NCBI GenBank assembly: GCA_024280415.1
Contig: JAJRQE010000170.1
Coordinates: forward strand, 1 to 38,484
DNA length: 38,484 nucleotides
Reading direction: 5' to 3'
Origin: Spirochaetota bacterium
GTDB lineage: Bacteria > Spirochaetota > Spirochaetia > B11-G9
Below the pieces are notes generated by a model. The model saw only the letters and a list, made by a program, of their open reading frames with translations. It ran no database searches and was not told the origin of the DNA. Within the stretch, counting starts at the first letter, position 1, and every line of letters starts with the position of its first letter. Of this stretch, positions 1 to 20,533 are shown piece by piece. The translations under genes and the position numbers were made by a program.

Positions 1-76
1 CCTAAAGAGTGTTATGCAAGAAATGGATATTTAATAAGGTTGCAACAAACATGAATAGTAATAGATGGGAGTTATT

Positions 77-1093
77 ATGCAGAAATATAAAGTAATTTAT
101 CAGACCTCACTTTCAGAGGTTCATCAGGCAGCAGCTTTATCCTCTGCTCCTGAAAATCTGGATGTTGTTATACGACGGGACCCTTCCAGGGAAGAGATGA
201 TTGAACTGATCAGTGATGCTGATTTTCTTATAAGTGAGAGAGAGGGCATTATTGATAATGAGCTGATCTCCTGTGCTCCCGGTTTGAAACTGATTCAGCG
301 AATTGGAAGGAGATCATATGATATAGATCTTGAATATGCGAAAAGCAGTGGGGTTGCTGTCTGCACTCAGCCTATAGAAAAAGCATTAAATGTGGCTGAA
401 CATATGATGATGCAGATACTCACTCTCTCTAAATATACCCTTGGATCAATGAATATCATGAAGCCCGGAGCGTCCTGGGACAGAGAACCTCAAAAATGCG
501 ATGAAGACACATTTGCCATAAACTGGACCGGAATAAAGAATATACGTTCCCTCCATAACATGACAGTAGGGATCCTGGGTTTTGGTGAGGTTGGACACGA
601 GCTGGCTTTGCGCCTGAAGCCTTTCAGATCTGTGATTTTATATAACAAACGCAATAGACTTCCTGTATCTGTTGAGAAGGATCTTGGACTGCAGTATAGT
701 AACAGGGATGCTATGTTCAGGGAAAGTGATATTGTCTGTTCTCTCCTCCCTTTACTTCCTGGCATTCCAGGGTCTATTGATAAACCTACAATAGATCTTA
801 TGAAACATGGTTCCTTTTTAGTCCATTGTGGTGCCAGTTCTACAATAAATGAAAGGGATGTTGCAGAAGCATTGAAGTCAGGGCAGTTGGGAGGATTCGC
901 TGCAGACACATATGCCTGGGAACCTGTAGAACCGGATAACCCTCTTTTGGCTGTTTCCGTTAATCCAGTTATTAATATTGTATTAACCCCGCATATTGCT
1001 GTGGGCTCTGTCTCCAGACCGTGGTTTGAAAGTATATACACCAATATCATCAGTTATCTGGCTAAAGAGTCATTATCTGACCGGTTAGTGTAG
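77..1093 (+). CDS. D-2-hydroxyacid dehydrogenase family protein, catalytic Arg missing
   Basis: Cytosolic NAD(P)-dependent 2-hydroxyacid dehydrogenase fold, 338 aa, a usual family length. The dinucleotide-binding motif GFGEVG is at about residues 168-173, the family Glu lies in ADTYAWEP (about 282) and the catalytic His in TPHIA (about 306). In the segment that normally reads N-x-x-R-G this protein has HCGASS, so the substrate-binding catalytic Arg is replaced by Ala (about 253). I chose the ATG at 77 because GGGAG lies five bases upstream; an in-frame ATG at 65 lacks a ribosome site. It may be a divergent dehydrogenase or a protein that binds NAD without classical activity. Substrate unknown. 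In the 64 bases before it, two frames end in stops (32-34 and 52-54), so the tail of another gene may be present but I cannot tell which. Confidence 0.85.
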   Translation: MQKYKVIYQTSLSEVHQAAALSSAPENLDVVIRRDPSREEMIELISDADFLISEREGIIDNELISCAPGLKLIQRIGRRSYDIDLEYAKSSGVAVCTQPIEKALNVAEHMMMQILTLSKYTLGSMNIMKPGASWDREPQKCDEDTFAINWTGIKNIRSLHNMTVGILGFGEVGHELALRLKPFRSVILYNKRNRLPVSVEKDLGLQYSNRDAMFRESDIVCSLLPLLPGIPGSIDKPTIDLMKHGSFLVHCGASSTINERDVAEALKSGQLGGFAADTYAWEPVEPDNPLLAVSVNPVINIVLTPHIAVGSVSRPWFESIYTNIISYLAKESLSDRLV

Positions 1094-1118
1094 AAAGTAT
1101 TGTACAGGAGTCTATTAA

Positions 1119-1301
1119 ATGAAAGAAAAGCATGAATTGTATAATGTAAAAGTAAGTGTAATTGAAGTAAAAGAGTGCAGTGCCGGCTTGAAAGTCGGAG
1201 ATTTTTTTAGAATTAATGTCGAGAACGGATTTAAAATGAAAAGTTGTGATGACTGGTGTCCGGAAGCAGTTCATGTAATTCTTAATTGCCGACTTTTTTA
1301 A
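1119..1301 (+). CDS. Small TIGR04076-like protein, C-terminally truncated
   Basis: A 60-residue protein with a CAGGAG ribosome site (1105-1110). The pattern VKVSVIEVKECSAGLKVGD followed by CPEAVHVI resembles the TIGR04076 family of small proteins of unknown function (Cys-x-x-Gly-x-Lys-x-Gly-Asp, then CPEA-H). Members I recall run some 20-35 residues further, so this copy seems cut off just after the CPEAVH motif. Its last 20 bases overlap, tail to tail, the end of the convergent molybdenum hydroxylase gene, which suggests the truncation came from the event that joined the two genes. It follows the dehydrogenase by 25 bases and may be co-transcribed. Family assignment is from memory of the motif; it could be a non-functional remnant. 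Confidence 0.5.
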   Translation: MKEKHELYNVKVSVIEVKECSAGLKVGDFFRINVENGFKMKSCDDWCPEAVHVILNCRLF

Positions 1302-4053
1302 TCAATTTCTGATCCACAGGCAAATTGAATATCCTTACTCCTGTTGCATCAAAAATAGCATTTGTAATTGCCGGTGCTGTTGCCAGGGAAGGTGCTTCTG
1401 CCAGTCCCTTTACTCCCAGAGGACCCCATGGATGAGGAACCTCAACGACAATATTTGTGATTTCCGGGGCTTCATTTGCTCTGGGTAATCCCAGGTCTCC
1501 CTGGTTTTTAGTCACTGGCAACCCTCTTTCTGATGAGTATTTTTCTGTGAGTGCATAACCTACACCCATTACTACACCCCCTTCCTGCTGCCCTTCAACA
1601 GCTCTCTTGTTAAGAACTTTTCCAAGATCACTTACAGTTACAATTTTTTTTGTTAAGACTTTTCCACTTTCATCATCAATCTCCACCAAGGCAAGCTGTA
1701 CTCCGTATGCATAAGCCCAGTGAGTTCTTCTGCTCTCAAAATTGGGGGAATCATAATCTTTCTGAGTAATTTTTTCCGGAAAAGTTGCAGTTTGTGGTGG
1801 AAAAGCTCTGAATTCAGCTCTTAAAGGTGCTCCGAGTTCAGAAAGTTTGATTCTCTTATCTGCAGTACTGTCAATTACAGAATCTCCCTTTAACTTAAGA
1901 GCCGCAGGATTTGAGTTCCCCAGTTTTTCTGCAGCAGCTGTTAAAATATCAGAGAGAAGTTTTCTCGCCGCTCCCAGGGTCGCATTTCCTGTCATAAAAG
2001 TCTGCATAGATGCTGTTGTTGCCGTAGTAAAAGGTGTTTTCCCTGTATCAGGAAGTTTAACAGAAATTTCATCGACAGGAATCCCCAGTACTTCCGATAC
2101 TAATTTAGCCTGACCAATTGCAGCTCCCTGTCCAAATTCATGATGTGTTACCATTAATTCACATCTCCCTTCAGTTGAAAGTTCCAGAATTGCTCCGGCG
2201 CTTTCGGGGAATCCATGACCAAACCCAATGTTTTTAACTCCACATGCAACACCTATTCCATATCTTTTTCCGCCGGAATTTGGTGGAAGAGTAAATTTTT
2301 CTCTTGCTTTTTTGGCTTCCAGTAAAGCTTCGACTATTCCAGGTATTCCTGGCTCGAGAATATGATCGGTAACCGTTGGAAGGCCTGGTTTTAGTGCATT
2401 TTTCAGTCTGATATCGATTGTATCCATCCGCAGCTTTTCTGCAGCCATATTTATGAGGGACTCTATCATGAAATTGGCCTGGTTTGCGCCGAATCCACGC
2501 ATTGCCCCTCCCATTACATTATTGGTATAAACAGCTTTTCCTTTTATTGATAATTCCGGTATATAGTATGGACCCACGGCAAAAGTCATCGCATTTTCTA
2601 TAATATCATGCCCAAGGGATGCATAGGCACCTGTATCTGTTTCTATATCAACAATGAGTGATTTAAACTTACCAGATTTGTCTACACCCAGAGATGCCTC
2701 AAACTGTATTGCGTGTTTTTTCTGTACAATACGGAGAGAGTCTTCCCTGTCCAGAGTTATTTTTACGGTTCTGTTGAATTTCAGGGCAGCCGCTGCAAGA
2801 ATATGCTGGAAGAGAACATCTTCCTTGCCTCCGAATGCGCCTCCTGTTGGAAGTTGTATAACCCTTACTTTATTCTCTTCCAGACCAAGGGCTCCTGCAA
2901 CTTGTCTGCGGTCATCAAAAGCTGCCTGGGTAGGATAGTAAATTTCAACACCGCCTTTCCCGTCAGGTACAGCATAACCCGATTCAACTTCCAGGTAACC
3001 ATGAGCTATTCTGGAGGTGGAAAAGTTGCCCTGTACAATAATATCTGCTGAGTTCAGAGCCTCTGCCGGTTTGCCTCTCTTAAGAAATCCATTGTATAGA
3101 ATATTATCCTTTTTATTTTTATGTAACAGGGGTGCATTTTTATCAAGTGCCTCTTTTACACTGAAAATCCCTGGAAGCTCTTTATACTCAGCACTCACAA
3201 GAGACAGTGCTTTTTCGGCTCCCTCCCTGCTGTCTGCAAATACTGCAACTATTGGATCTGAAACGGATCTTATTCGCTCGCCGATTCCTACGAGTCCAGG
3301 CTGATCCTGCTCAACCATTCCTATTTTATTGGATCCATTTATATCATCAGCCTTTAAGAACCCTGCAAAACCTTTTATTTCGGAAATATGCTGGGTGTTT
3401 ATACTGTTAAGAATACCACTGGGAATATCAGAGAATTTGATTTTTCCAAATATTGCTCCCTCAAGCTCAATATCATCAGCATATTTTAACTGTCCTGTAA
3501 CTTTTGGCAGGGCATCCTTTCTTCTTAAAGATGCATCATCAGGAAGTCCTGTCAGTTTACTCTTTTCACCTCTTAGTACTCTGCCTGCATCTTCTACAGC
3601 ATCTACAATTTTTTGATAACCTGTGCATCTGCAGATATTTTTGGAACCAATATAATCTCTTATTACCTGCCTGGAGGGGTTCTTATTTTCGTTGAGTAAT
3701 CCTGTGGATGTTATAATCATGCCGGGAGTACAGTATCCGCACTGAAGAGCTCCTGCATTCACAAAGGCTTCCTGAACAGGATGGAGCTCACCTGACTTTG
3801 ATACTAACCCTTCTATTGTTCTTATTTCTGAGTTCTCAAGGAGATTATGATCCATTTTAATTCTGCATGATTTAATAGGTTTTCCATTGAGCAGCACTGT
3901 ACAGGATCCGCAGTGACCCTCGCTGCATCCTTTTTTGACACCTGTAAGGTGTAATTCATATCTAAGAAAATTCTGTAAAGTCTTAACAGGATCACTTTTT
4001 GTATTGATCAGTGAACCATTGACAGTAAAATTAATACCCTTATCTGCATCCAT
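1282..4053 (-). CDS. Single-chain [2Fe-2S]/molybdopterin hydroxylase (xanthine dehydrogenase/aldehyde oxidoreductase family)
   Basis: 923 aa, combining what are often two subunits. Residues 1-155 are the iron-sulfur part: plant-type cluster ligands C43, C48, C51, C63, then the second cluster C105, C108, C141, C143. From about 170 onward is the molybdopterin domain with the GGAFGGKED loop, the MRGFGANQ segment and the active-site Glu at about 886 in GVKGLAEAP. The order matches Desulfovibrio-type aldehyde oxidoreductase (Mop), which has no FAD subunit; no FAD subunit is seen here either. Such enzymes hydroxylate purines, other N-heterocycles or aldehydes in the cytoplasm; the substrate cannot be read from the sequence. 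The ATG at 4053 has a good CAGGGAG site. It is separated from the upstream RibD-like genes by a minus-strand terminator at 4121-4142, so it probably has its own promoter. Confidence 0.9.
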   Translation of the reverse strand: MDADKGINFTVNGSLINTKSDPVKTLQNFLRYELHLTGVKKGCSEGHCGSCTVLLNGKPIKSCRIKMDHNLLENSEIRTIEGLVSKSGELHPVQEAFVNAGALQCGYCTPGMIITSTGLLNENKNPSRQVIRDYIGSKNICRCTGYQKIVDAVEDAGRVLRGEKSKLTGLPDDASLRRKDALPKVTGQLKYADDIELEGAIFGKIKFSDIPSGILNSINTQHISEIKGFAGFLKADDINGSNKIGMVEQDQPGLVGIGERIRSVSDPIVAVFADSREGAEKALSLVSAEYKELPGIFSVKEALDKNAPLLHKNKKDNILYNGFLKRGKPAEALNSADIIVQGNFSTSRIAHGYLEVESGYAVPDGKGGVEIYYPTQAAFDDRRQVAGALGLEENKVRVIQLPTGGAFGGKEDVLFQHILAAAALKFNRTVKITLDREDSLRIVQKKHAIQFEASLGVDKSGKFKSLIVDIETDTGAYASLGHDIIENAMTFAVGPYYIPELSIKGKAVYTNNVMGGAMRGFGANQANFMIESLINMAAEKLRMDTIDIRLKNALKPGLPTVTDHILEPGIPGIVEALLEAKKAREKFTLPPNSGGKRYGIGVACGVKNIGFGHGFPESAGAILELSTEGRCELMVTHHEFGQGAAIGQAKLVSEVLGIPVDEISVKLPDTGKTPFTTATTASMQTFMTGNATLGAARKLLSDILTAAAEKLGNSNPAALKLKGDSVIDSTADKRIKLSELGAPLRAEFRAFPPQTATFPEKITQKDYDSPNFESRRTHWAYAYGVQLALVEIDDESGKVLTKKIVTVSDLGKVLNKRAVEGQQEGGVVMGVGYALTEKYSSERGLPVTKNQGDLGLPRANEAPEITNIVVEVPHPWGPLGVKGLAEAPSLATAPAITNAIFDATGVRIFNLPVDQKLIKKVGN

Positions 4054-4120
4054 TGTTTGCTCCCTGGAAGAAAAATATTCAAAAGAAGGTTGACTATATC
4101 ATACATTATTAATTATTTGT

Positions 4121-4142
4121 AAAAAAAAACCGGATCAGCCGG
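4121..4142 (-). terminator. Rho-independent terminator of the RibD-like operon
   Basis: Read on the minus strand, CCGG, a five-base loop (CTGAT) and CCGG are followed directly by nine T residues (A run 4121-4129 on the plus strand). The stem is short but GC-only and the T-run is uninterrupted. It lies after the two RibD-like genes and 68 bases before the hydroxylase start, so it should separate the two transcripts. Confidence 0.7.
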
Positions 4143-4354
4143 GAGGAAAAGAAATAGCTGAAGTGTGGAATCCAACCATCCTGAAGAAAGCAGGAGGGTT
4201 GGTTCTCTAAAGGGGAAAGTACAGCGTAATACTCCTGATTATCTTCCCCTGGAATATCAATTCTATAAACTTTTTCTGTTCCGCCGTAACCAGCTGCAAG
4301 CCCATCTTCTACTGCCTGGACTGCAGCCCTGTAACTACCGAACTCAGCAATGTA
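4143..4354 (-). pseudogene. Open frame without a start codon after the second RibD-like gene; possible gene remnant or readthrough extension
   Basis: This stretch of about 210 bases follows directly, and in the same frame, the TAA of the 306-residue RibD-like gene. The frame stays open for 81 codons to a TAA at 4109-4111. The first 50 residues look like real protein (AEFGSYRAAVQAVEDGLAAG, then a segment with YRIDIPGED and YYAVLSPLE). There is no in-frame ATG, GTG or TTG. The part past 4142 runs into the terminator and is unlikely to be coding. The RibD-like protein already ends where its family normally ends (RYRMEYK), so I favour a decayed separate gene. Stop readthrough giving a C-terminal extension is the alternative. 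I do not recognise the family. Apart from this I see nothing in 4054-4354 except the terminator and the upstream region of the hydroxylase. Confidence 0.35.
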
Positions 4355-5275
4355 TTATTTATACTCCATTCTGTACCGGGTATAGAAAAAGTAATCACTG
4401 TGGCTGTGAATTGAAATAACTTTACAGTGGGGGTGATTATTTAAAGTAAAAGAATCCATTCTTTTACCAAGTGACAGGGCTTCACCTCCAATAAATACTG
4501 ACGAAGTATTGAGATACAGCTCATCGAGTAATGTATCTCTCATCAGGGATACCAGAAATGTGGGACTCTCTATGAGCATGGTGTCAATTCCAAGGGATTT
4601 TAGAAATTGCAGAAGTTCTGTCAGGTTAATGCATCCGGCTTTACCCATTGATACTATACCTTTTATGTTATTTGTAAGAGCTGTAGTTGCAGCATTGTTA
4701 AAATCTATAAAACTGGATCCCAGGGATTCCTTCAATACTTTTTTCCCTTCCTCTGTAGTTACAATAAGCAGGGGAATATCAGAGTTTTGCACAATCCTGT
4801 GATCCAAAGGGAAATTTGAACCATCTCCGCTTACTATAACATGTAAAGGCACCCCGGACTTTCCTTCCTCTATTCTTGAAGTTTCCAGGTCAGAGTCATA
4901 TATATGGCCTGTAAGTGCCGGTTCTTTGGCTATTGTACTGTCTCCCATAAGTACCGCATCACAAACAGAGCGGAGCATATTGAGAATCCAGTAATCTGCA
5001 AGTGCGCCCTGGTCATCTTTTTTATTCCCTCTTGCTACGAGAGTACCGTCAGGAGATTCAGGGAAAGCAATTTTTCCGTCTATAGACTGTACAAAAGATC
5101 CAAGAGTATAGGTTCTTGTGGCTGGTAGTGCGGGGAAGGAAAAATTACCGTAAACTTCCTCTGTTTTTTTATAAGTATCTTTCTGGTGATTTATATATTT
5201 TGAATCCTTACTCTGATAAATCCTGTTTAGTTTTATTTTGTCTGCAGGGAAATCTATTTTGTATTGATTGGACAT
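4355..5275 (-). CDS. RibD C-terminal domain (dihydrofolate reductase-like) protein, 306 aa
   Basis: The reductase domain of RibD (PF01872) without the deaminase domain. Recognisable blocks are GSFVQSIDGKIA (about 58-69), MLRSVCDAVLMGDSTI (about 98-113) and LIESPTFLVSLMRDTLLDEL followed by SSVFIGG near the C-terminus, ending in the usual RY. Family members reduce the ribosyl group of a pyrimidine with NADPH (RibD) or act as general dihydrofolate-reductase-like enzymes. No other riboflavin gene is nearby, so a biosynthetic role is doubtful; a reductase in the local catabolic pathway is more likely (inference). Its ATG follows the TAA of the upstream paralogue with no base between (TAAATG), which implies translational coupling and perhaps a heteromeric enzyme. 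Residues 1-50 form an extension not typical of the domain. Confidence 0.8.
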   Translation of the reverse strand: MSNQYKIDFPADKIKLNRIYQSKDSKYINHQKDTYKKTEEVYGNFSFPALPATRTYTLGSFVQSIDGKIAFPESPDGTLVARGNKKDDQGALADYWILNMLRSVCDAVLMGDSTIAKEPALTGHIYDSDLETSRIEEGKSGVPLHVIVSGDGSNFPLDHRIVQNSDIPLLIVTTEEGKKVLKESLGSSFIDFNNAATTALTNNIKGIVSMGKAGCINLTELLQFLKSLGIDTMLIESPTFLVSLMRDTLLDELYLNTSSVFIGGEALSLGKRMDSFTLNNHPHCKVISIHSHSDYFFYTRYRMEYK

Positions 5276-6397
5276 TTACTGCTCCCCTCCGAAAGATTTG
5301 ATTTTTCTTGTATCCAGAACCACAACAGCTGCTTCATCGGGCTCATCTGAAATTATTTCTGCAACAGGAAAACTCTTCGGTATTTTACCTGTCGGGGTGT
5401 CGAAAAAATCAATAAAGCGTTCCTGGAAATTGTTCAGAACCAATTTTTTAATTCTGCTCTCAATGTCAGGATTATTTTCTACTACTTCCCTGAGAGACGG
5501 TTTCCTGGCAAATGTAAAATTGAACTGATCGATTATTCCTGCCTGGCAGAAGGCTTTCAGCACCTTTTTCCCTCCATCGTGGTTGGCAAGTATAATATTG
5601 TATTCTTTAAACAAAATACCCGGAAGTTTCGGCAGATCCAGCTTATCCGGATTATCCCTATGAGAAATGGTAATTAATATTTTGTCTATTCTGTCTCCTA
5701 GATTATATTCTTCAGCTCGTTCTTTTATCTTTTCAGCTCCTATTTGACTGGTAACTATATAGGCTTCAACAGGAGAACCATCAGGAAGCTTTTCATGGAA
5801 AACAGAAGCAGATAAAAGATCCGGATCTGTTCTTTTACCACTCTGGGTAACAACAATCTGGGCAGGATATTCTCTGTTCGAAGCATAACCCAGTTCCTGC
5901 ATAAGTTTTCTCTGTTCTTTGAAACGTTTCATCATATTTGGATCTGCAGCTTTTAAATGGGGCCACTCTGCACAGAATTGGGGCAGCCACATATAACCGG
6001 GACTGCCGTCTTTTCCAGGAACACCGTCATTAATAACTGTACTGCTTCCAACGATTACCGCATCAGTAATGGCATACTGCATCGCAAGACGGTAGCCGTC
6101 CATAACATTGCTGTTTGCAATAATTCCGCCTCCGCTAAGTCCGTCAATGTTGAAAATCCAGTGTTCAACATCGTAAATTGATAATGAACCATCTTTTCTG
6201 ACATATGGTTCTGACCATATGCTATCAGCGGGTCTTAAAATAAACATACCTATAATAGCTGTTTTCTTTGTTTTCAGAGGATCTGTTATTATTGGAAAAT
6301 TACCATCATGATGAAATTTCTTCATCCCTTCTGTAAAAGGTATTTTTACCTTAATTCGGTTTTCATCATGGAATATTCCGGAATGTTTCAGCTTCAT
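5276..6397 (-). CDS. RibD C-terminal domain (dihydrofolate reductase-like) protein, 373 aa
   Basis: A longer, diverged paralogue of the gene that follows it. The TDAVIVGSSTVINDG block matches the nucleotide-binding region of PF01872 (the paralogue has CDAVLMGDSTIAKEP). Near the C-terminus, ILANHDGGKKVLKAF-type and AGIIDQFNFTFARKPSL segments match the family's 'EGG...L...gLvDEl' region, though the usual ESG motif is altered. An insertion between these blocks (WLPQFCAEWPHLKAADPNMM and beyond) lengthens it. I set the start at 6397 because AGGAGG lies just before that ATG; the frame reaches an ATG at 6424 that has no ribosome site. It heads the RibD-like pair and is divergent from the importer operon across a 128-base region containing the HutC-type operator, so both directions could share control. 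Confidence 0.7.
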   Translation of the reverse strand: MKLKHSGIFHDENRIKVKIPFTEGMKKFHHDGNFPIITDPLKTKKTAIIGMFILRPADSIWSEPYVRKDGSLSIYDVEHWIFNIDGLSGGGIIANSNVMDGYRLAMQYAITDAVIVGSSTVINDGVPGKDGSPGYMWLPQFCAEWPHLKAADPNMMKRFKEQRKLMQELGYASNREYPAQIVVTQSGKRTDPDLLSASVFHEKLPDGSPVEAYIVTSQIGAEKIKERAEEYNLGDRIDKILITISHRDNPDKLDLPKLPGILFKEYNIILANHDGGKKVLKAFCQAGIIDQFNFTFARKPSLREVVENNPDIESRIKKLVLNNFQERFIDFFDTPTGKIPKSFPVAEIISDEPDEAAVVVLDTRKIKSFGGEQ

Positions 6398-6440
6398 ACC
6401 AACCTCCTGTAAAATAATAGTCAAAAAATGAATATAATTC

Positions 6441-6480
6441 TTGACAACTTAAATATTCTATCATAAAGTTGTCTATACAT
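6441..6480 (+). promoter_or_regulatory. Promoter of the importer operon with a HutC-type operator at the start of transcription
   Basis: TTGACA (6441-6446), 17-base spacer, TAAAGT (6464-6469). Immediately downstream TTGTCTATACAT (6469-6480) contains GTCTATAC (6471-6478), an exact match to the known HutC-subfamily operator core GT-N-TA-N-AC. The 13 bases AGTTGTCTATACA (6467-6479) recur before the nucleotidase gene at 18743-18755. In addition GACAACTT (6443-6450) and AAGTTGTC (6466-6473) form a perfect 8-base inverted repeat spanning the promoter. A repressor bound here would cover the -10 and +1. That the HutC-type protein at 17955-18686 is the repressor is inference. Confidence 0.75.
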
Positions 6481-6525
6481 CTATATGAGTAAGCAGATAT
6501 TTTAAAATTTTCAGGAGGAGATCAG

Positions 6526-7833
6526 ATGAAGAAGAGTTATGCACTGACAGTGCTAGTAGTTTTACTGTTAGTACCTGCATTTGCATTTGCAGGCGGTAAG
6601 ACCGAAGAACCGGGAGAGATGGGTCCTGTAATAGTCTGGAGTGAAATTAATATAAAAGCTCCCCAGACAAATCTGGATGAGAACTTTGCAAAGGCTGTTG
6701 AAGGAATTGAAGATGCAATGGGGACAGAGCTTATTATAGTTACTACTCCCTATAAGGAGATTAGTGCGAAGGTCAACCTTGCTGTTCAGGCAGGTGGAGA
6801 TGTTCCTGATATTGCACAGCTGAAAGTATCTAAACTTGCTTTTCATGTAGATAACGGTACTTTGATGGATATTACAAAATATGTTGAAGCTTCTCCATGG
6901 TATGCAGGAATGAATAAATCTGCTTTGGATGCAGGACGAGGTGCTGATGGTAAGATCTATGCTGTTCCTTTTAATACAAGATCTACACTTACATATTCAT
7001 ATACTGATGCGTTCCCCGATGGACCGCCATTAACAACCGATGATATTCTTGCTGCCGGGCCTGGTTTAAAAGAAAAAGGGATGTTTACAATAACAGGAAA
7101 GGCTTCTGAACAGCAGGGTGTACAGGTATGGTGGTGGCCACTGATCAGAACTTTTGGGGGTCATTTTGCAGACTCAGATGGTAAAGTAGCATGGGCTAAC
7201 GATGCGACTGTTAAAGCCATAGAATTTACAAGGGAACTTATTTCAAAAGGATATGCACCTGAAGTAATCCTTTCTCCTGGTTTTGATGATGAAATCCCGT
7301 TTATGAATGGTGATGTAGGAGCTTTCAATGCTGGTTCCTGGTCCTATGTATGGTTAAATCCCCTTACCACTCCCTCTGGTGTAAAGTATGATAATAAATC
7401 AGCTTCAGTGGAAGAGGCGATAAAAGCAGGTGACCTTGTTCTTTCCCCTCAAATTTCTGCTCCCGGCAGTAAACATGTTACTCCGCTGGATGGAATCCTA
7501 TGGGCAATTCCTGTTGGATCAAAAAATGTAGAAGGTGCTCAGGCTTTTATCGATTTTATGATGCAGACAAAAGTGAATACTGATGTGGCTTATGCCTGGG
7601 GTGGTGTTCCAACCATCGATGCAGGTAAAAATGATCCCAGATATGCAGATAGTGTGTATTGGAGCAAGGTTACTGAATTTATGAGTAAATATGCTGAAGC
7701 AATGGAACCAGTAGCTAATTATGATGAAGCAACATTAAAATTTGCTGATATTGCTATAGCCCTTATACATAACACTGGAAAGGATATTATGCCTGTTCTT
7801 AAACAGGCACAGGATGAACTAAACGCAGAGTAA
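6526..7833 (+). CDS. ABC importer extracellular substrate-binding protein (family 1, MalE-like)
   Basis: 435 aa with a clear signal peptide: KK at residues 3-4, a hydrophobic stretch to about 22, and likely signal peptidase I cleavage after AFA before GGKTEE. There is no lipobox Cys, so the protein is periplasmic. The body has the layout of carbohydrate-binding solute-binding proteins, for example a Trp-rich WWWPLIRTFGG segment, AFNAGSWSYVWLNP and DGILWAIPVGSKN near the hinge. A strong AGGAGG ribosome site precedes the ATG. It is the first gene of the plus-strand operon, behind the operator-bearing promoter, and is followed by a stem-loop and two permease genes. The MalEFG-type family suggests a sugar, polyol or glycoside ligand; which one cannot be told. 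Confidence 0.9.
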   Translation: MKKSYALTVLVVLLLVPAFAFAGGKTEEPGEMGPVIVWSEINIKAPQTNLDENFAKAVEGIEDAMGTELIIVTTPYKEISAKVNLAVQAGGDVPDIAQLKVSKLAFHVDNGTLMDITKYVEASPWYAGMNKSALDAGRGADGKIYAVPFNTRSTLTYSYTDAFPDGPPLTTDDILAAGPGLKEKGMFTITGKASEQQGVQVWWWPLIRTFGGHFADSDGKVAWANDATVKAIEFTRELISKGYAPEVILSPGFDDEIPFMNGDVGAFNAGSWSYVWLNPLTTPSGVKYDNKSASVEEAIKAGDLVLSPQISAPGSKHVTPLDGILWAIPVGSKNVEGAQAFIDFMMQTKVNTDVAYAWGGVPTIDAGKNDPRYADSVYWSKVTEFMSKYAEAMEPVANYDEATLKFADIAIALIHNTGKDIMPVLKQAQDELNAE

Positions 7834-7849
7834 TATCATATTACTTACC

Positions 7850-7871: not shown

Positions 7872-7895
7872 ATTTTGATATTAGCAGGAGTAGAT

Positions 7896-8759: not shown

Positions 8760-8777
8760 GTTAAGGGTGTATCTACC

Positions 8778-10535: not shown

Positions 10536-10537
10536 AT

Positions 10538-11569: not shown

Positions 11570-11578
11570 GTGATTTTT

Positions 11579-13027: not shown

Positions 13028-13799
13028 ACGGTTTGAAAAGAATGTTGTACTAATAACCGGATCTGCAACTGGCCTGGGCGAGGCATGCGCTGTTAGATTT
13101 GCAGAAGAGGGTGCTGATATTGTATGTGTGGATATAAATGAGAGAGAAAATATAAAAACAGTTGAAGACTGTAAAAAACTTGGAGTAAGGTCAGTTTCTT
13201 TTATAAGGAATGTTACAGATCGGTCAGGAGCTGATGAGATTATCTCTTCTGTAATTAAAGAATTTGGAAAGATAGATACACTTATATGTTCTGCCGGACT
13301 GTATACCGGATCTTCCATTGAAGAGGTTACCATTGAACAATGGGAAACAATTATTGATATAAATCTTACCGGAACATTTCTTTACAACAGAGCAGTAGCT
13401 CCTATTATGAAATCCCAAAAGACTGGCAGTATAATTAATATATCGTCTATGGCAGGAAAAACAAGCTGGGAGGCCTCTTTCGAATACTCTGCTTCAAAAA
13501 GTGGCGTCATCGGACTTACCCGATCTATGGCGATGGAACTGGCACCTTACGGGGCAACAGTAAATGCTCTGTGCCCTGGTAATACTCTGACAGCAATGGT
13601 AAAGAGTGTTGCCAGACAAATTGGCGACAGAGACGGTATGACAGCTCAGGAGTGGCTGGATATGAGGGCTAACGACTGTCCAATGAAAAGACTGGCAGAA
13701 CCCTGGGAAATGGCTGGGATTACAGCATTCCTTGCATCAAATGATTCACGATATATAACCGGACAATCCTTATCCGCAGATGGGGGAATGGTCCTGTAA
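13020..13799 (+). CDS. Short-chain dehydrogenase/reductase
   Basis: 259-residue classical SDR. The cofactor loop TGSATGLG (about 14-20) and an Asp at the end of the second strand (CVDIN) suggest NAD. The catalytic set is Ser142/143, Tyr156 and Lys160 (YSASK), and the C-terminus has the common form YITGQSLSADGGMVL. It probably oxidises or reduces a hydroxyl on a pathway intermediate. Its ATG lies inside the end of the kinase gene, with AGGAG upstream, and the MFS gene follows after 11 bases, so it is co-transcribed. The exact substrate is unknown. Confidence 0.88.
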   Translation: MNKRFEKNVVLITGSATGLGEACAVRFAEEGADIVCVDINERENIKTVEDCKKLGVRSVSFIRNVTDRSGADEIISSVIKEFGKIDTLICSAGLYTGSSIEEVTIEQWETIIDINLTGTFLYNRAVAPIMKSQKTGSIINISSMAGKTSWEASFEYSASKSGVIGLTRSMAMELAPYGATVNALCPGNTLTAMVKSVARQIGDRDGMTAQEWLDMRANDCPMKRLAEPWEMAGITAFLASNDSRYITGQSLSADGGMVL

Positions 13800-13810
13800 A
13801 AAGGATAAAA

Positions 13811-14983
13811 ATGAATAATAAAACTGAAAATCTGGTATACTCAAAACGGGAGATAATAACTATATATACCTCCAGTTTTATGATTTTGATCAACCTCATG
13901 CTATCTCTTACACTGTTTCCTCTGTATGTAAAATACAGAGGGGGGAGTGATTTTATCGTCGGCCTTCAAACTGGAATCTTTACCCTGGCCTCTGTAGTAT
14001 TCAGGTTGTATTTCGGTCCACTAGCCGATTCTATGGGTAGAAGGTTCCCTCTGTTATTGGGGTCATTCATATTTGCTACAGCACCAATTATGGTTTGGTT
14101 ATCACCAAATTTTTTTATTATGTCTTTGGCAAGGCTTTATCAGGCAATTGGAATGGCTACTTTTTTATCAGCGGTTGGTGCCTCAATATCAGATATGGTA
14201 TCTGTGAAAAAAAGGAGTTCAGCAATTGGTTTATATCGGGCAATGGCAGCTTCTACCTTCCTCGTAGGCTCATATATTGGTTTTTATCTGATTAACAATT
14301 ATGGATTTCCTTCCTTCTTTATTGCACTGGCAGGATCATCAATTTTTGGGATGCTAATACTATTTACTATCAGAATACCTGAAGGCGAAATGAAAACATC
14401 AGGAGGTTCTGTTAAGCCTGGTGACTTGCTTGCATTGATTAAAAATAAAGACCTTAGAGCCTGTTATACTGGAATAATTCTTTCAGCGGCATCTTCTGCA
14501 GCTCTTTTGACATATATTGCAGTCTATTTCATGACTTTGAAAAATAGTATCTCAACGCCGTTGTTTTTTTCTATATACGGGATTTCAGGGATAATAGGTT
14601 CTACATTCATAGGATATTTATCCGGGCGAATTAAACGTATCAATTTGGTTTTACCATTAACTTTAATCTTTGGAACTGGTCTGATAATACTTGGTTTGAA
14701 CAGATTTGCTGGTACTGCGGTATTTTTAGCTGTTCCAGTACTAATTGCTTTTGGTTATTCCGGAAGCATTACTAATTACTCTACATGGATAGTAGACAGT
14801 GCACCAGGTAATTTAAGGGCTTCTGCTCTTTCTTTTCAGGAAAGTTCAATGGATATTGGGACTACCCTGGGAAGTTTCTTTTTCGGAATACTTGCGGCAA
14901 ATTTTTATTATGCTCCTTTATTTATAGGTTTAGGTTTGTTAACCTTTTCTTTCCCATTGGCAGTAAAGATAGCATGGCGATAA
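13811..14983 (+). CDS. Major facilitator superfamily transporter
   Basis: 390 residues with about 12 hydrophobic segments. The signature between helices 2 and 3 is visible as FGPLADSMGRRFPLL (family form G-x-x-x-D-x-x-G-R-R), with a second diluted copy after helix 8 (GYLSGRIKRINL). It is an inner-membrane single-polypeptide carrier. With an ABC importer in the same operon, it may export a product such as the unused aglycone, or take up a related substrate; the sequence does not say which. Ribosome site AAAAGGA is seven bases before the ATG. A gap of 57 bases without a clear promoter separates it from the hydroxylase genes. Confidence 0.85.
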   Translation: MNNKTENLVYSKREIITIYTSSFMILINLMLSLTLFPLYVKYRGGSDFIVGLQTGIFTLASVVFRLYFGPLADSMGRRFPLLLGSFIFATAPIMVWLSPNFFIMSLARLYQAIGMATFLSAVGASISDMVSVKKRSSAIGLYRAMAASTFLVGSYIGFYLINNYGFPSFFIALAGSSIFGMLILFTIRIPEGEMKTSGGSVKPGDLLALIKNKDLRACYTGIILSAASSAALLTYIAVYFMTLKNSISTPLFFSIYGISGIIGSTFIGYLSGRIKRINLVLPLTLIFGTGLIILGLNRFAGTAVFLAVPVLIAFGYSGSITNYSTWIVDSAPGNLRASALSFQESSMDIGTTLGSFFFGILAANFYYAPLFIGLGLLTFSFPLAVKIAWR

Positions 14984-15040
14984 TTATGTTTTAGTTAAAA
15001 ACAATAGATTTATACACATAGGGATATAGGTGGTTTGAAA

Positions 15041-15529
15041 ATGGATAATGAAATTTTATTTGTGGAATTAAATATAAATGGTGAGCTTAAATATCTGCAT
15101 ATAAATAAAAAATGGACCCTCCTTCATGTGTTGAGAGAGGTATTGAATATGACAGGTACAAAGTATGGGTGCGGAACCAATGATTGTGGTGCCTGTAGAG
15201 TACTTATTAATGGAGAAGCAAAGAATTCCTGTGTTATTCCTGCTAAAAACCTGGAGGGGAAAGAGATTATAACTATTGAGGGACTTCAGGATAATGGTAG
15301 TCTGAATACTATCCAGAAATCCTTTGTAGATGCAGGAGCTATTCAATGCGGATTTTGTACCCCAGGAATGATTATCTCAACAAGCGCATTATTGAAAAAA
15401 AATCCCAGACCTTCAGAAAATGAGATAAGAGAGGGTTTAAAAGATAATTTATGCAGGTGTACAGGATATGTAAAAATAGTTGAAGCAGTAAAGCTTTCAT
15501 CAGTCAGATTAGAGGGGAGCATAGGATGA
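15041..15529 (+). CDS. [2Fe-2S] subunit of a molybdenum hydroxylase (XdhC/CoxS/NdhS-type)
   Basis: 162-residue iron-sulfur subunit. The ferredoxin-type cluster ligands are C44, C49, C52, C64 and the second, helical cluster ligands are C103, C106, C138, C140. It carries electrons from the molybdopterin site of the partner subunit. I set the start at the ATG at 15041, which has AGGTGG seven bases upstream; a TTG six bases earlier is in frame. Its stop overlaps the start of the large subunit in an ATGA, so the two are made together. No medium FAD subunit is nearby, so the final electron acceptor is probably not NAD through the usual flavin subunit. Confidence 0.92.
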   Translation: MDNEILFVELNINGELKYLHINKKWTLLHVLREVLNMTGTKYGCGTNDCGACRVLINGEAKNSCVIPAKNLEGKEIITIEGLQDNGSLNTIQKSFVDAGAIQCGFCTPGMIISTSALLKKNPRPSENEIREGLKDNLCRCTGYVKIVEAVKLSSVRLEGSIG

Positions 15530-17916
15530 GTGATCGTTATACAGATATCAAGAATCTGGAAAAGTCTTTCAGGGATAAAGGCTTAAAATATGTAGGTAAA
15601 AGAATTTTTAATCGTGAATCGGAAATGAAAGCTGCAGGTGAGACCATCTATATTGATGATATGAGAATAAAAGGGATGATATATGGTAAAATTCTTTTTT
15701 CTCCCCATGCCCATGCAAAAATTATAAAAATTGATACTAAAAAGGCTGAAGCCCTGCCAGGAGTTCATGCTGTAATTCACTACTTTAACAGTCCTCATGT
15801 TGTTTATAATGGAGCAGCCAGATTTTATATGGATTCAAGTCCAATGGATATGCCAAGAACAGAATATATTTTTGATGAAACAGTGAAGTATGTAGGTGAC
15901 AGAGTAGCTGCTGTTTCTGCAGATACACAGAAAATTGCAGAACAGGCAGTTAAGCTTATCGAAGTAGAGTATCAGGATTTACCCTCATCAATAGATTTTA
16001 ATAAAGCGGTTGTGAATGGTTCTCCTCAGGCAAACCCAAATGGTAAAGATGGTTCTAATATATGTGGTGAATGGCTTGCATACGGGAATGCAACCGAGGA
16101 GGAAACAAAAGAAAGTATTGAATCTGCAGAGTTCACTTTTAAGGATACTTTTAGAACTCCCAGAGTTCATCATGGCTATATGGAGCCAGTATGTCATATA
16201 GCCGATTATACCAGAGAAGGAAAGTTAACGATCTGGTCATCCTGTCAGAATGTATTCTGTTTCAGGGATGTAATTGCCCGGGCTCTGGAGTTGTCTCAAA
16301 GTAAAGTCAGAGTTATAAAAACAGTTAGTGGAGGTGCTTTTGGTGGTAAGCTGGAGGTTATGCATGAAGTAGTTGCTGGTTTATTATCAATGCGTTCCCG
16401 CAGACCTGTTAAATTACTCCTAAATAGAAAGGAGACTTTTATCTCCACTAGAAGCAGACATGAGGCAATTCTTACTGTCTCAACCGGATTAAACAGAGAT
16501 GGTAAAATTCTTGCTCAGCATGTAGAGTCGCGACTGAATACCGGTGCATATGCGGGAGCGGGTCCAAATACTGTGGGTGCACAGTCAGAGAAAATGTTTG
16601 TACTGTACAATGGTGATAAAATGTTTTACCGGGGAGCTTCTTTTTATTCAAATACACCTCCTGCAGGAGCCATGCGGGGCTATGGATCTCCCCAGATACA
16701 TGCAGCCCGGGAAACACATATGGATCGGATTGCAGTGGCATTGGGTATTGACCCTGTAGAACTGAGAAAGCTAAATGTAGTACTTCCCTACAAAAATAAC
16801 AGCCTCGGTAACAATATGCATAATGCACTTATTAAAGAATGTATTGAAACAGGGGAAAAAGAGTTCAATTGGGCAAAGAGGCGAAAAAATGCCGGGGAGA
16901 ATCAGTCCGGGAGATATAGAAGGGGAGTTGGTATGGATATTGCCGTCCATGGAAATGGATGGTTTCCTGTTTACCAGGATCTGAGTACAGTGACCATAAA
17001 GATGAACAATGATGGTACAGCAGTACTTCTTACAGGTACTCATGACCTTGGTACAGGGTCAAGAACAATTTTTAGTCAGATTGCAGGAGAGGTTCTCGAT
17101 ATGTCTCCCGATTTAATTGAAATAATTGAAGCTGATACAGATATAACACCTCTTGATCTGGGAGCACAGGCTTCCCGAACAACTTACATTGGTGGTAATG
17201 CTACCATTCTTGCAGCAGCAAATCTTCGGACACAGTTATTGAAAGAGGCTTCAGCGATTCTAAAGCTTGATGATTCGGAACTTATTATCAAAGATAGAAT
17301 TATAAGTTCACGGAACGATCCACAGATTTCCTGTTCGTATACAGAAATAGTAGCTTCTGCCCAGGCTGGTAAATATGGAGTTCAAAGAGATTTAACTGCT
17401 ACAGAGTCATTTGAATCTGTAAATTCTGTTGATAGTTATGTAGCAGTATTTACAGAGCTTGAAGTAGATATAAATACCGGTAAAGTAAGAGTTATTGAAG
17501 TTCTTCCTGTTCATAATTCAGGTAAGGTTATAAATCCCCTATTATTCGAGGGGCAGGTAAATGGTGGTGTCCATATGGGTCTTGGATATGCACTGTCCGA
17601 GGAGATGCTTATTGATTCTGAAACAGGTCGTATCAAAAACCCTTCATTTGGAAAATACAAGATGTTCAGAGCGGATCAAATGCCTAAAATCACAATTAGA
17701 ACAGTAGAAAGTCCTGAGGAGGCTGGTCCCTTCGGTGCTAAAAGTATTGGTGAATGTGCAACTGATGGAGTTGCCGGAGCTATAGTAAATGCTGTAAGTC
17801 ATGCATTGGGGAATGTGAAGCTGGACAGGATCCCCTTAACTGAGGAATATCTCAAGTCTGTTATAATCGCGAAAGTGGCGGCAGATATAGTAATAGAGGA
17901 GAACGAATGCGAGTGA
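15526..17916 (+). CDS. Molybdopterin-binding subunit of a molybdenum hydroxylase (xanthine dehydrogenase family)
   Basis: 796-residue catalytic subunit. A short N-terminal aldehyde-oxidase domain (about 30-150) is followed by the Mo-cofactor domain with GGAFGGK (about 270), MRGYGSPQ (about 385) and the active-site Glu at about 743 in GAKSIGE. The residues that set substrate type in xanthine dehydrogenase cannot be assigned by eye, so purine, other N-heterocycle or aldehyde are all possible. With the small subunit and the single-chain enzyme at 1282-4053, this gives two distinct hydroxylases in one island. It is the last gene of the plus-strand set and converges on the HutC-type regulator, with a hairpin between them. 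Confidence 0.92.
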   Translation: MSDRYTDIKNLEKSFRDKGLKYVGKRIFNRESEMKAAGETIYIDDMRIKGMIYGKILFSPHAHAKIIKIDTKKAEALPGVHAVIHYFNSPHVVYNGAARFYMDSSPMDMPRTEYIFDETVKYVGDRVAAVSADTQKIAEQAVKLIEVEYQDLPSSIDFNKAVVNGSPQANPNGKDGSNICGEWLAYGNATEEETKESIESAEFTFKDTFRTPRVHHGYMEPVCHIADYTREGKLTIWSSCQNVFCFRDVIARALELSQSKVRVIKTVSGGAFGGKLEVMHEVVAGLLSMRSRRPVKLLLNRKETFISTRSRHEAILTVSTGLNRDGKILAQHVESRLNTGAYAGAGPNTVGAQSEKMFVLYNGDKMFYRGASFYSNTPPAGAMRGYGSPQIHAARETHMDRIAVALGIDPVELRKLNVVLPYKNNSLGNNMHNALIKECIETGEKEFNWAKRRKNAGENQSGRYRRGVGMDIAVHGNGWFPVYQDLSTVTIKMNNDGTAVLLTGTHDLGTGSRTIFSQIAGEVLDMSPDLIEIIEADTDITPLDLGAQASRTTYIGGNATILAAANLRTQLLKEASAILKLDDSELIIKDRIISSRNDPQISCSYTEIVASAQAGKYGVQRDLTATESFESVNSVDSYVAVFTELEVDINTGKVRVIEVLPVHNSGKVINPLLFEGQVNGGVHMGLGYALSEEMLIDSETGRIKNPSFGKYKMFRADQMPKITIRTVESPEEAGPFGAKSIGECATDGVAGAIVNAVSHALGNVKLDRIPLTEEYLKSVIIAKVAADIVIEENECE

Positions 17917-17925
17917 CAGGGTAAA

Positions 17926-17950
17926 GGAAATTAGGATTTTTTTAATTTCC
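17926..17950. terminator. Hairpin between convergent hydroxylase and regulator genes
   Basis: GGAAATTA (17926-17933) and TAATTTCC (17943-17950) form an 8-base perfect inverted repeat with a nine-base loop. It sits in the 38-base gap between convergent genes, where a shared terminator is expected. The stem is AT-rich and no T-run follows on either strand, so strength is doubtful. Confidence 0.5.
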
Positions 17951-17954
17951 AAAT

Positions 17955-18686
17955 TTACTGCCTCTTTAGATGAACATCAAAAATATATCTATCCCCTCTA
18001 TACCAGCTCCTACTGTACTCGAAGGGAATGTTGTCCTCTATGAAAGAAATTCTTTGTATACACAAAATAGGGTCACCGTTTTTGATACCAAGGAAAGAAG
18101 CTGTTTCTGCATCTGCAGAAATTGCCTCCAGGTGTTCAGTAGCGTTTAATATCATTCTATTATAACTGTTACTGCATACTGAATATAAAGATTCCTTTTC
18201 GAAATTGAAATGAAGAAGTCCCGGGCAAAAAGCTGAAGGAATATAATCTTCGTGTATTACAATTGGTTCTTTATTTGCAAACCGCAGACGTTTTACTTTA
18301 AAGACTCTGTCTTCACTGGTCAGTTCCATGGGGATTTGCATGAATTCCGGAGCAATTATTTCTTCTGCTTCTAAAACCCTGGAGCTGACTTTAAAACCTC
18401 TTTCTTCCATATCATACTTAAAGCCTTTAAAATTTTCCTGACTGTTTTCAATTCTGGGTTTTTGAACAAAGGTTCCATAACCCTGCTTTCTAACCAGATA
18501 TCCTTCGTTCACCAGTTCAGTAACTGCACTTCTTGCAGTCAATCTACTAACACCATATTTATCTTTTAGCTGAGGTTCTGAGAGAATTTTTTCACCAGGT
18601 TTAATCTTTCCGTTAATTATTTCATTTAATATATCTTCTTTAATTTGCCAGTAAACAGGTACGTGACTTTTCCGATCTATTATCAA
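17955..18686 (-). CDS. GntR-family transcriptional regulator, HutC subfamily
   Basis: 243 residues. A GntR winged helix (about 8-76: PVYWQIKEDILNEII, then SEPQLKDKYGVSRLTARSAV and a wing with RKQGYGTFV) is followed by a UTRA ligand-binding domain (about 95-240). The start is a TTG with AAGGA upstream on the minus strand; no ATG fits better. HutC-type repressors bind GT-N-TA-N-AC sites and release on binding a small effector, often a pathway intermediate or sugar phosphate. Two such sites lie in this window, at 6471 and, 61 bases from this start codon, at 18747. It is therefore the best candidate for the local regulator and may also control itself (inference). Confidence 0.88.
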   Translation of the reverse strand: MIIDRKSHVPVYWQIKEDILNEIINGKIKPGEKILSEPQLKDKYGVSRLTARSAVTELVNEGYLVRKQGYGTFVQKPRIENSQENFKGFKYDMEERGFKVSSRVLEAEEIIAPEFMQIPMELTSEDRVFKVKRLRFANKEPIVIHEDYIPSAFCPGLLHFNFEKESLYSVCSNSYNRMILNATEHLEAISADAETASFLGIKNGDPILCIQRISFIEDNIPFEYSRSWYRGDRYIFDVHLKRQ

Positions 18687-18713
18687 AATATCTTCCTTAA
18701 GATTTTGTAATTA

Positions 18714-18756
18714 TTGACAACAATTATTGCACAGGATAGTATAGTTGTCTATACAA
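18714..18756 (+). promoter_or_regulatory. Promoter of the nucleotidase-like gene with a HutC-type operator
   Basis: TTGACA (18714-18719), 17-base spacer, TAGTAT (18737-18742), then TTGTCTATACAA (18745-18756), a 12-base near-palindrome (10 of 12 positions symmetric) with the core GTCTATAC (18747-18754). The layout copies that of the importer promoter at 6441. GACAAC (18716-18721) and GTTGTC (18744-18749) are also inverted repeats. The site lies in the 125-base region between the divergent HutC gene and the nucleotidase-like gene and could serve both. Confidence 0.75.
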
Positions 18757-18811
18757 TTAAACACTAAGATAATAATGAAATTGAGTTAGATTGATTTGAG
18801 AGGATAAGATA

Positions 18812-20533
18812 TTGGGAATAATAGAATTTAGAAGGTCAGAAAACACTTTATGTGGTCAAAATCGTGTATTTGGAATTGATTGGTCCTTTTCAAAATCAGA
18901 TGCTGCAGAACTTCCGGAAAGAAGGTTTGACCTTGAAGTGAATCCTTTTTTTCTTAAAATATTTCATATTAACGATCTCCATGGCAATATATATAGTTTT
19001 AATAGCTCTGGCACAGCTATTCCTGTGTTTACAAAAATAGTTGATCAGGTGGAGAAGGAACGGATTGCTGTAGAAAAGCTGGATAACAGTGGAGTTCTTT
19101 TTCTTTCTGCCGGAGATGACAGTATTGGTACATCCCTGGATTACCTGACAGGTTATGATGGGAAAGGTTTTATCACCCATCCGGTCTACTCGGCTTTTAG
19201 TCTTGCAGGTGTTGATGCTACTGTACTGGGGAACCATGATCTGGATACCGGTATGAGCACTCTAAAGCTTTCAGTTTCTGAAAATTCAGAATTTCCTGTG
19301 TTATCTGCGAACCTGGATCATAAGGGAGAACTTGACGGTTTTGTTTATCCAGGTGCAATAGTTGTTGTAAAAGGGATAAGGATAGGAATTATCGGTCTGA
19401 CAACACCCGGACAGGTTCGTACCAGGCCAGGTTCTGAATATACAGTCCGGGATCCCTATGAAGCTGTCACACAGCTTTACGATGTTTTAACTCCTCTCTG
19501 TGATTCAATTATAATACTCAGCCATCTGGGATACAAACTTGGTTCTACTTTTGCTACTGTAAAAATGACTGGAGATGTTGAATTGGCATCCAGGCTGGGG
19601 GATTATAAAATTGATACAATTGTTGGCGGTCATACGCATGATTTTCTGAATATCCAGGGGCTGGAGGCTAAAAATCTCGTTAATGGAATTCCTGTTCTCC
19701 AGGCAGGTTATAATGGTTTGTTCTATGGGAAGGGAACTCTAAAGATCTCCGATAAAAATAAAATTATGAATAGTTCTATTTTTCCTACAGGAACCCTGTC
19801 CGGAAGTAGTCATTTTGATACAGCCTTTTCTTCCTCAACAGCAGGGCAGCATATGAAAGATCTACAGATTCCTCTCGGCGTAATGAACCTTCAGGGGAAA
19901 TTCAGCAACAATGAATGTGAAATTAATAATAACGGTGCTGAAAGTCCTATAGCAAATTTTATTACCAGTGCTTTAGCATCTGAAGTCAGGCAAAGAGGTA
20001 GAGTAGTTGATCTGGCCGCAATAGACAGTTCAAATATGGTATCTGTTTTTAATTTTAGAAAAAAATCAGTAAATATTATAGATCTATACCGCCTGATGCC
20101 ATATGCTGATACTATTGTGGCTTTTTCACTTACTGGAAAAGATCTTGAAAAAATTCTTACTTCCAATGCTCTGCGTCTGGATAGTGATTATATTTCGAAC
20201 ATCACAAGAGGGTTTATTCATTTTAGCAGGGAGCTTAGGTATACTATTAACAAAACAGACAGAACTATTTCTAATATTACGATAAACAATATTCCTATTG
20301 AAGATTGCTATGAAAGATTGTTTATCATAGCTGCACCGAATTTTGTTCAGGGTCTTGGGGCTAACTGGGAAAAATCAAAAGAGATGCATAATATAGTTCT
20401 TCACAGTATGAGTGCCTTTAAAAAAGAGGATACCGGTCTATATGTACGAAATGAATTACTTAATTATATTAAAAAACATGGAGTAACAGAAAATAGTGGT
20501 TTTCTTACTGACAGCAGGATCAAAATTATTTAG
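18812..20533 (+). CDS. 5'-nucleotidase/2',3'-cyclic phosphodiesterase family metallophosphatase without a signal peptide
   Basis: 573 residues. The calcineurin-like domain has the binuclear metal ligands in order: DLH (D55, H57), GDD (D102), GNHD (N141-H142), SHLG (H238) and GGHTH (H274, H276). The 5_nucleotid_C domain follows from about 350. Relatives such as UshA are exported and strip phosphate from nucleotides outside the cell. This one starts at a TTG (18812) with GAGAGG upstream and has a roughly 47-residue polar N-terminus with no hydrophobic signal, so it should act in the cytoplasm. Its promoter carries the same operator as the importer, which ties it to the pathway, perhaps as a phosphatase for a nucleotide-like or sugar-phosphate intermediate (inference). 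Confidence 0.88.
   Translation: MGIIEFRRSENTLCGQNRVFGIDWSFSKSDAAELPERRFDLEVNPFFLKIFHINDLHGNIYSFNSSGTAIPVFTKIVDQVEKERIAVEKLDNSGVLFLSAGDDSIGTSLDYLTGYDGKGFITHPVYSAFSLAGVDATVLGNHDLDTGMSTLKLSVSENSEFPVLSANLDHKGELDGFVYPGAIVVVKGIRIGIIGLTTPGQVRTRPGSEYTVRDPYEAVTQLYDVLTPLCDSIIILSHLGYKLGSTFATVKMTGDVELASRLGDYKIDTIVGGHTHDFLNIQGLEAKNLVNGIPVLQAGYNGLFYGKGTLKISDKNKIMNSSIFPTGTLSGSSHFDTAFSSSTAGQHMKDLQIPLGVMNLQGKFSNNECEINNNGAESPIANFITSALASEVRQRGRVVDLAAIDSSNMVSVFNFRKKSVNIIDLYRLMPYADTIVAFSLTGKDLEKILTSNALRLDSDYISNITRGFIHFSRELRYTINKTDRTISNITINNIPIEDCYERLFIIAAPNFVQGLGANWEKSKEMHNIVLHSMSAFKKEDTGLYVRNELLNYIKKHGVTENSGFLTDSRIKII

Follow-up and report, generated by a model that had tools for sequence, protein, structure and literature searches.

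What would a spirochaete gain from a gene cluster that sets sugar-catabolic enzymes beside relatives of riboflavin reductases? The cluster lies in the window, the whole stretch of DNA analyzed here: one entire contig of 38,484 bases from a Spirochaetota genome (G000), whose assembly comprises 3.9 Mb in 338 contigs. An earlier reading of the letters alone, hereafter the original prediction, described a catabolic island with two molybdenum (Mo) hydroxylases, two RibD-domain reductases, and a sugar or polyol pathway; judged by open reading frames and Pfam matches, every gene family that it listed is present near the positions it gave. Comparison with other genomes bears out the island's sugar part and its RibD-like proteins. 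A GntR-UTRA regulator, a DhnA-type aldolase, an alcohol dehydrogenase (ADH), and an FGGY kinase form a conserved operon in Bacillota, mostly with a BMP-type ATP-binding cassette (ABC) importer, and RibD-like protein A belongs to a distinct branch of family PF01872 that recurs in catabolic clusters. The island is coherent, probably jointly regulated, and not just a chance neighborhood. Tentatively, we prefer to read it as one regulon through which the cell would take up and ferment an N-heterocycle that bears a polyol chain (ribityl, polyhydroxyalkyl, or nucleoside-like); the central guess of the original prediction is in this respect plausible and partly supported. The genes that carry the argument are these:

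4355 to 5275, minus strand: RibD-like protein A, member of the catabolic PF01872 branch (E=1e-15)
5276 to 6397, minus strand: RibD-like protein B, very divergent (hhalign to the RibD-like family alignment)
9753 to 10535, plus strand: class I DhnA-type aldolase (DeoC/DhnA; PF01791)
10538 to 11569, plus strand: Zn-dependent medium-chain ADH (PF08240/PF00107)
11570 to 13027, plus strand: FGGY carbohydrate kinase, XylB-like (PF00370/PF02782)
17955 to 18686, minus strand: GntR-UTRA (HutC-type) regulator (PF07702, PF00392)

No published description of the core operon was found. The window holds orthologous DhnA, ADH, and FGGY genes in that order plus the GntR-UTRA gene; it differs from the Bacillota form in the position of the GntR gene, at the far end, and in having a CUT1 importer in place of the BMP type. 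A contig from a Thermoanaerobacter metagenome-assembled genome (L002) carries in one run a GntR-UTRA regulator (47%), a BMP-type ABC importer, DhnA (53%), ADH (57%), FGGY (39%), and two RibD-like paralogues (36–39%). The same gene set recurs in genome G357, where a contig ends within the RibD region and splits the set (L030/L031). In G876 (L040), FGGY, ADH (52%), DhnA (56%), a RibD-like protein, and GntR-UTRA stand together. RibD-like genes thus lie inside the same operon as the core at L002, L031 (with L030), and L040; at L053, a RibD-like gene of a third subclade adjoins a more distant set of FGGY, DhnA, and short-chain dehydrogenase (SDR) genes.

When 399 Bacillota genomes were searched with the aldolase alignment, 12 had orthologues scoring above 360 bits; eight of these 12 possess the RibD-like branch as well, where 0.4 would be expected (hypergeometric P=1e-10, kinship ignored). 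The gene-neighborhood comparison proposed in the original prediction therefore came out in favor of the sugar core and the RibD-like genes together. Neighborhoods in the 12 genomes, of varying completeness, comprise GntR-UTRA, one or two FMN_red flavoproteins, the BMP importer, DhnA, ADH, and FGGY. A variant (L093–L095) has LacI, FGGY, FMN_red, and extra ADHs, with a FolB-domain protein in L093 and L094. GntR-UTRA orthologues (38–48%) head the Bacillota operons. The aldolase, whose kin are MJ0400 and class I fructose-bisphosphate aldolases, has orthologues at 53–58%, and the lysine at the aligned Schiff-base position is kept in four of four. The FGGY kinase misses the cut-off of the XylB (xylulokinase) equivalog (292 versus 380 bits).

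RibD-like A passes the PF01872 gathering score (58.2 versus 24.1 bits) and falls below cut-off for the riboflavin reductase equivalogs (TIGR01508, 43 versus 186 bits; TIGR00227, 44 versus 150 bits); for the branch as a whole, no NCBIfam riboflavin model comes near its cut-off. The predicted model of A (predicted local distance difference test score, pLDDT, 87) finds its best Protein Data Bank (PDB) matches in archaeal Rib7 and Rv2671, including pterin complexes of the latter. In modeled fold and in family A thus appears akin to the RibD C-terminal domain and archaeal Rib7 (Methanosarcina mazei Rib7, 5xux; TM 0.84 by target length), with which it shares the SxDGK motif; it differs in its low identity (20%), in its EGG loop, which reads ES-P, in its tail, and in its catabolic neighborhoods. 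These traits extend across the branch. Its 32 members, aligned along their length, retain SxDGK, have ESP(S/T) for the Rib7 glycine loop EGGATL (E236 and P238 are invariant), and share the C-terminal signature HPHA...H...F.YTR.

RibD-like A sits on a long branch and shares a clade (98/98) with the proteins of L002/L030 and with five others. The RibD-like branch was found in 14 of the 399 Bacillota genomes and in one of 296 genomes of the window's own phylum; its rarity in the latter makes it likely that the RibD-like genes reached the genome by transfer. The window ADH groups with the L002/L031 pair (100/99), away from the spirochaete-like ADHs sampled in its own phylum. Since both trees place the window proteins with the Thermoanaerobacter lineage, their sequences suggest a shared history for ADH and RibD-like A. 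A plasmid collection searched with RibD-like A, RibD-like B, ADH, and another branch member gave no match. L003 proved to be a distant RibD (25%), and a search of its genome's class with alignment A2 gave no match.

RibD-like B is likely a relative of RibD, but a remote one, as judged by profile comparison. Its open frame (5276–6424) has no Pfam or NCBIfam match, and no homologue was found in 58 relatives or 15 further genomes; aligned to the RibD-like family, its residues 97–238 give an hhalign probability of 88.7 (E=2.6e-6). Its structure prediction was set aside at a pLDDT of 48. Translation of B probably begins at the ATG at 6397, preceded by AGGAGG, and its stop abuts the start of A (TAA-ATG). 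The proposal of two RibD-domain reductases is too strong: kinship with RibD is clear for A by PF01872 and remote for B, and a reductase role is putative for both. The frame of A stays open for 81 codons past its stop (4113–4354, minus strand) and reads protein-like (YIAEFGSYRAAVQAVEDGL...), possibly a small gene or the remnant of a fused domain.

What surrounds the branch elsewhere? Neighbors were counted at about 30 loci with RibD-like genes, the window being left out of the DhnA/FGGY count. A BMP importer lies near in 13 loci, a COG0402-type amidohydrolase adjoins the RibD-like gene in 11, and DhnA with FGGY is nearby in seven. Single clusters contain ECF-type ATPases, FolB, UbiD, LplA-type ligases, a 2-oxoacid/acetoin-type dehydrogenase complex, and a methenyl-tetrahydromethanopterin (H4MPT) cyclohydrolase (MCH) above its equivalog cut-off. 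Six of 30 loci have MCH less than 10 kb from a RibD-like gene, against 0.8 expected, although three of the six are close relatives. The closest solved structure to the BMP binding protein is Lbp, which was fitted with guanosine (PMC9601137). Together these neighbors point to a flavin-, pterin-, or purine-like ring, with no single ring singled out. The heterocycle of the original prediction is indirectly supported by these BMP and ECF importers, amidohydrolases, FolB, and MCH; the substrate itself stays a guess. In the loci scanned with Rfam, no relevant riboswitch accompanies the RibD-like genes (T-box, fluoride riboswitch, tRNAs, and RNase P only). Literature searches turned up no matching pathway for the breakdown of pterins, for a catabolic RibD, or for MCH in Firmicutes. 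Separately, Bacillota with the RibD-like branch (G743, G876, G799, G852, and others) carry one to seven MCH copies (PF02289), some in tandem, and a tested copy exceeds its equivalog cut-off. An H4MPT-linked one-carbon pathway, raised by MCH, was set aside because G000 has no MCH.

The remaining features of the island complete its layout:

65 to 1093, plus strand: D-2-hydroxyacid dehydrogenase (PF02826, E=8e-34; PF00389)
1282 to 4053, minus strand: Mo hydroxylase 1, 2Fe-2S part fused to the Mo domains (PF02738, PF20256, PF01799, PF00111)
6441 to 6480: central divergent promoter with operator candidate TTGTCTATACAT, preceded by TTGACA-17-TAAAGT
6526 to 7833, plus strand: CUT1-type solute-binding protein with signal peptide (PF13416, E=3e-28)
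7875 to 8759, plus strand: ABC permease 1 (PF00528)
8778 to 9623, plus strand: ABC permease 2 (PF00528)
13020 to 13799, plus strand: SDR (PF13561)
13811 to 14983, plus strand: major facilitator superfamily (MFS) transporter (PF07690)
15035 to 15529, plus strand: Mo hydroxylase 2, 2Fe-2S subunit (PF01799/PF00111)
15526 to 17916, plus strand: Mo hydroxylase 2, Mo subunit, XdhA-like (PF02738/PF20256/PF01315)
18714 to 18756: second divergent promoter with operator candidate TTGTCTATACAA (promoter and motif scan)
18812 to 20533, plus strand: UshA/5'-nucleotidase-like phosphoesterase (PF02872, PF00149)

Gaps from DhnA through ADH, FGGY, SDR, MFS, and the small and large subunits of Mo hydroxylase 2 measure only −8 to 51 bases, so this run looks like a single operon. 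Membership of the 2-hydroxyacid dehydrogenase, which has its own promoter side, is uncertain. Base composition along the window shows no break, and an Rfam scan of the window found no riboswitch.

Regulation ties the parts together. The sequence GTnTAnAC is the operator type of HutC-subfamily GntR regulators. NagR sites are related to it (PMC4333415). In the window, TGTnTAnACA is limited to three sites, of which one is in the central divergent promoter, one in the divergent promoter between the GntR and nucleotidase-like genes, and one inside the GntR gene. Exact matches to TTGTCTATACAW are confined to 6469 and 18745, one per divergent promoter; with one mismatch there are three sites against 0.51 expected, a number reached by two of 100 shuffles. 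Both intergenic candidates overlap or follow a promoter-like pair starting TTGACA. These motifs make the GntR-UTRA gene the obvious candidate for control of the entire island. No operator motif was found near the GntR genes of Bacillota orthologues, and support for the site comes from this window alone. A second GntR-type regulator (20631–21353, minus strand) stands at the island's far edge; its relatives (25–32%) lie beside RibD-like clusters in Bacillota (L037, L041, L046, L052, L053, and L057).

How might such a regulon work? We infer every reaction, the step order, and the substrate of the proposed pathway, with flavin and pterin types as the leading candidates. The substrate would enter through the CUT1 binding protein and permeases; the ATPase of this importer would, as is usual for the family, be encoded elsewhere, and none appears among the window's Pfam matches. 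The Zn-dependent ADH would oxidize a chain hydroxyl to a ketone, the FGGY kinase would phosphorylate a terminal hydroxyl, and the DhnA aldolase would cleave the chain to dihydroxyacetone phosphate (DHAP) and a short ring-bound aldehyde, or free glycolaldehyde. If the chain is ribityl-like and is first oxidized at C4' and phosphorylated at C5', a retro-aldol cleavage between C2' and C3' would yield DHAP and a ring-bound acetaldehyde; this last scheme applies established aldol chemistry. A Mo hydroxylase would then oxidize that aldehyde, hydroxylate the ring, or both, while SDR and the 2-hydroxyacid dehydrogenase might take care of side products. The RibD-like pair may act on the ring or on the ring–chain linkage, most simply as a pyridine-nucleotide reductase like Rib7, but the cofactor loop is altered. 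A GntR-UTRA repressor would govern both divergent promoters and the nucleotidase-like gene.

Both Mo hydroxylases have the 2Fe-2S and Mo-cofactor domains of the xanthine dehydrogenase (XDH)/aldehyde oxidoreductase superfamily. Mo hydroxylase 1 has the architecture of the selenium-dependent XDH (Se-XDH)/aldehyde oxidoreductase type, with no FAD domain, and the window's Pfam matches include no FAD subunit. The best NCBIfam scores stay below cut-off (TIGR03311, 657 versus 830 bits, for hydroxylase 1; NF043082, 612 versus 780 bits, for hydroxylase 2). That these best scores are for XDH models suggests another pathway, for nucleosides or purines, in which XDH-type hydroxylases act on the base, the nucleotidase-like enzyme dephosphorylates, and the sugar enzymes consume the freed pentose; the nucleotidase-like gene sits on the regulator's divergent promoter, and kin of the BMP proteins bind nucleosides. 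We consider this unlikely. The Pfam matches in the window include no nucleoside phosphorylase or hydrolase, and the XDH models are below cut-off. The open frame of the nucleotidase-like protein (18812–20533) has no signal peptide, every NCBIfam model scores far below cut-off for it, and the gene is absent from the related operons examined.

Several observations weigh against the preferred reading, a heterocycle regulon. The original prediction made the two Mo hydroxylases part of the combination, and this did not hold up: in Bacillota, Mo hydroxylases lie within 10 kb of RibD-like genes in three of 30 loci, against 2.7 expected, and genomes with the Thermoanaerobacter-type operon (L002) have no PF02738 genome-wide. 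Their presence here may be incidental, given the 11 copies of PF02738 in G000. Four of the 12 core-operon genomes lack the RibD-like branch, so the core functions without it. The window's importer is of the CUT1 rather than the BMP type, and its binding protein (6526–7833) has only weak PDB kin, which are sugar-binding proteins. Finally, the window has no ring-diagnostic enzyme: it lacks the amidohydrolase, FolB, and MCH that occur at other loci.

The Mo hydroxylases are probably accessory, outside the conserved combination. At the genome level, at least six copies of PF02738 occur in 11 of 14 RibD-like genomes versus nine of 144 others (150-genome sample, kinship ignored). Two other genomes are rich in PF02738: G876 with 24 copies and G852 with 15. 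Four of 15 loci other than the window have a Mo hydroxylase (L090, L095) or a tungsten aldehyde oxidoreductase (L088, L093) next to the core operon; given these neighbors, oxidation of the aldolase-released aldehyde would be the preferred role for at least one Mo hydroxylase. Their abundance in G000 and their lack of enrichment near RibD-like genes elsewhere could also mean that unrelated operons merely lie side by side in a Mo-hydroxylase-rich genome. That is quite improbable in view of the near-zero spacing from DhnA through the large Mo subunit, the operator candidates common to both divergent promoters, and the conservation of core and RibD-like A in distant genomes.

A serious rival, given the CUT1 importer and the lack of a ring-opening hydrolase in the window, is a pathway for a free polyol or ketose. 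ADH would form the ketose, FGGY and DhnA would yield DHAP and glycolaldehyde or another small aldehyde, and the RibD-like and Mo proteins would be passengers or aldehyde detoxifiers. The core enzymes are of sugar-type families, as is the window's importer; four core operons occur in genomes without any RibD-like gene; and the Thermoanaerobacter operon requires just importer, aldolase, ADH, kinase, and the RibD-like pair. Such a pathway is possible, though we doubt it. Two distinct RibD-like subclades lie inside the core operon (L002, L040) and a third near the L053 set; most core operons have an importer of the BMP type, a family in which the closest proteins of solved structure bind nucleosides or nucleobases; and in G779 (L089) the kinase gene is followed by one for a COG0402-type amidohydrolase.

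Known systems share parts of the logic proposed for a heterocycle regulon. During anaerobic riboflavin degradation, which yields hydroxyethylflavin and formylmethylflavin, Clostridium scindens induces the fin neighborhood with a kinase, a class I aldolase, an ADH, and an aldehyde dehydrogenase (PMC12934955). The likeness, in an anaerobe, is one of enzyme logic: kinase, class I aldolase, ADH, and aldehyde oxidation. However, fin has a RibF-type kinase, an aldehyde dehydrogenase, and Grd subunits, with no RibD or FGGY reported (PMC12934955), and none of these three markers appears among the Pfam matches of the window proteins. Lsr catabolism of autoinducer-2 (AI-2) likewise joins an FGGY kinase (LsrK), a DhnA-type aldolase (LsrF), and an ABC importer; the window differs in having ADH and RibD-like proteins and no LsrG-type gene among its Pfam matches, and it misses the equivalog cut-offs (LsrF, 129 versus 297 bits; LsrK, 118 versus 528 bits). 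In reductive uric acid degradation (XdhD, YgfK, SsnA), a reductase coupled to an amidohydrolase opens the ring (PMC12507026). This combination of Mo hydroxylase, reductase, and amidohydrolase resembles the Bacillota RibD-like amidohydrolase clusters, whose pairs are possibly analogous in ring opening; the uric acid pathway uses another reductase, and the window has a polyol module and no amidohydrolase.

Two genes outside the island deserve record. The protein at 25041–26180 (minus strand) has, in a bacterium, a tRNA-queuosine mannosyltransferase N-terminal domain (PF12038). A nitronate monooxygenase-like gene at 31497–32162 (minus strand) spans profile positions 143–329 of 331, so that its N-terminal half is missing.

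To our knowledge, next to nothing is established at the gene level about how anaerobes turn over flavins, pterins, and related cofactors. On anaerobic riboflavin breakdown, one 2026 preprint was found, without defined enzymes. More boldly, and with correspondingly greater doubt, the island could belong to an as yet undescribed route by which anaerobes take apart a cofactor-type heterocycle with a polyol chain (flavin, deazaflavin, pterin, or methanopterin type): the chain would go to DHAP through ADH, FGGY, and DhnA, a repurposed, cofactor-altered branch of the riboflavin reductase fold would act on the ring, and MCH, FolB, and amidohydrolases would be further ring enzymes in Bacillota. In the RibD-like branch, a biosynthetic fold seemingly has been recruited into catabolism. 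The conserved operon and this recognizable branch open the question to tests, since they supply named genes, a binding protein, and relatives in thermophilic and other anaerobes.

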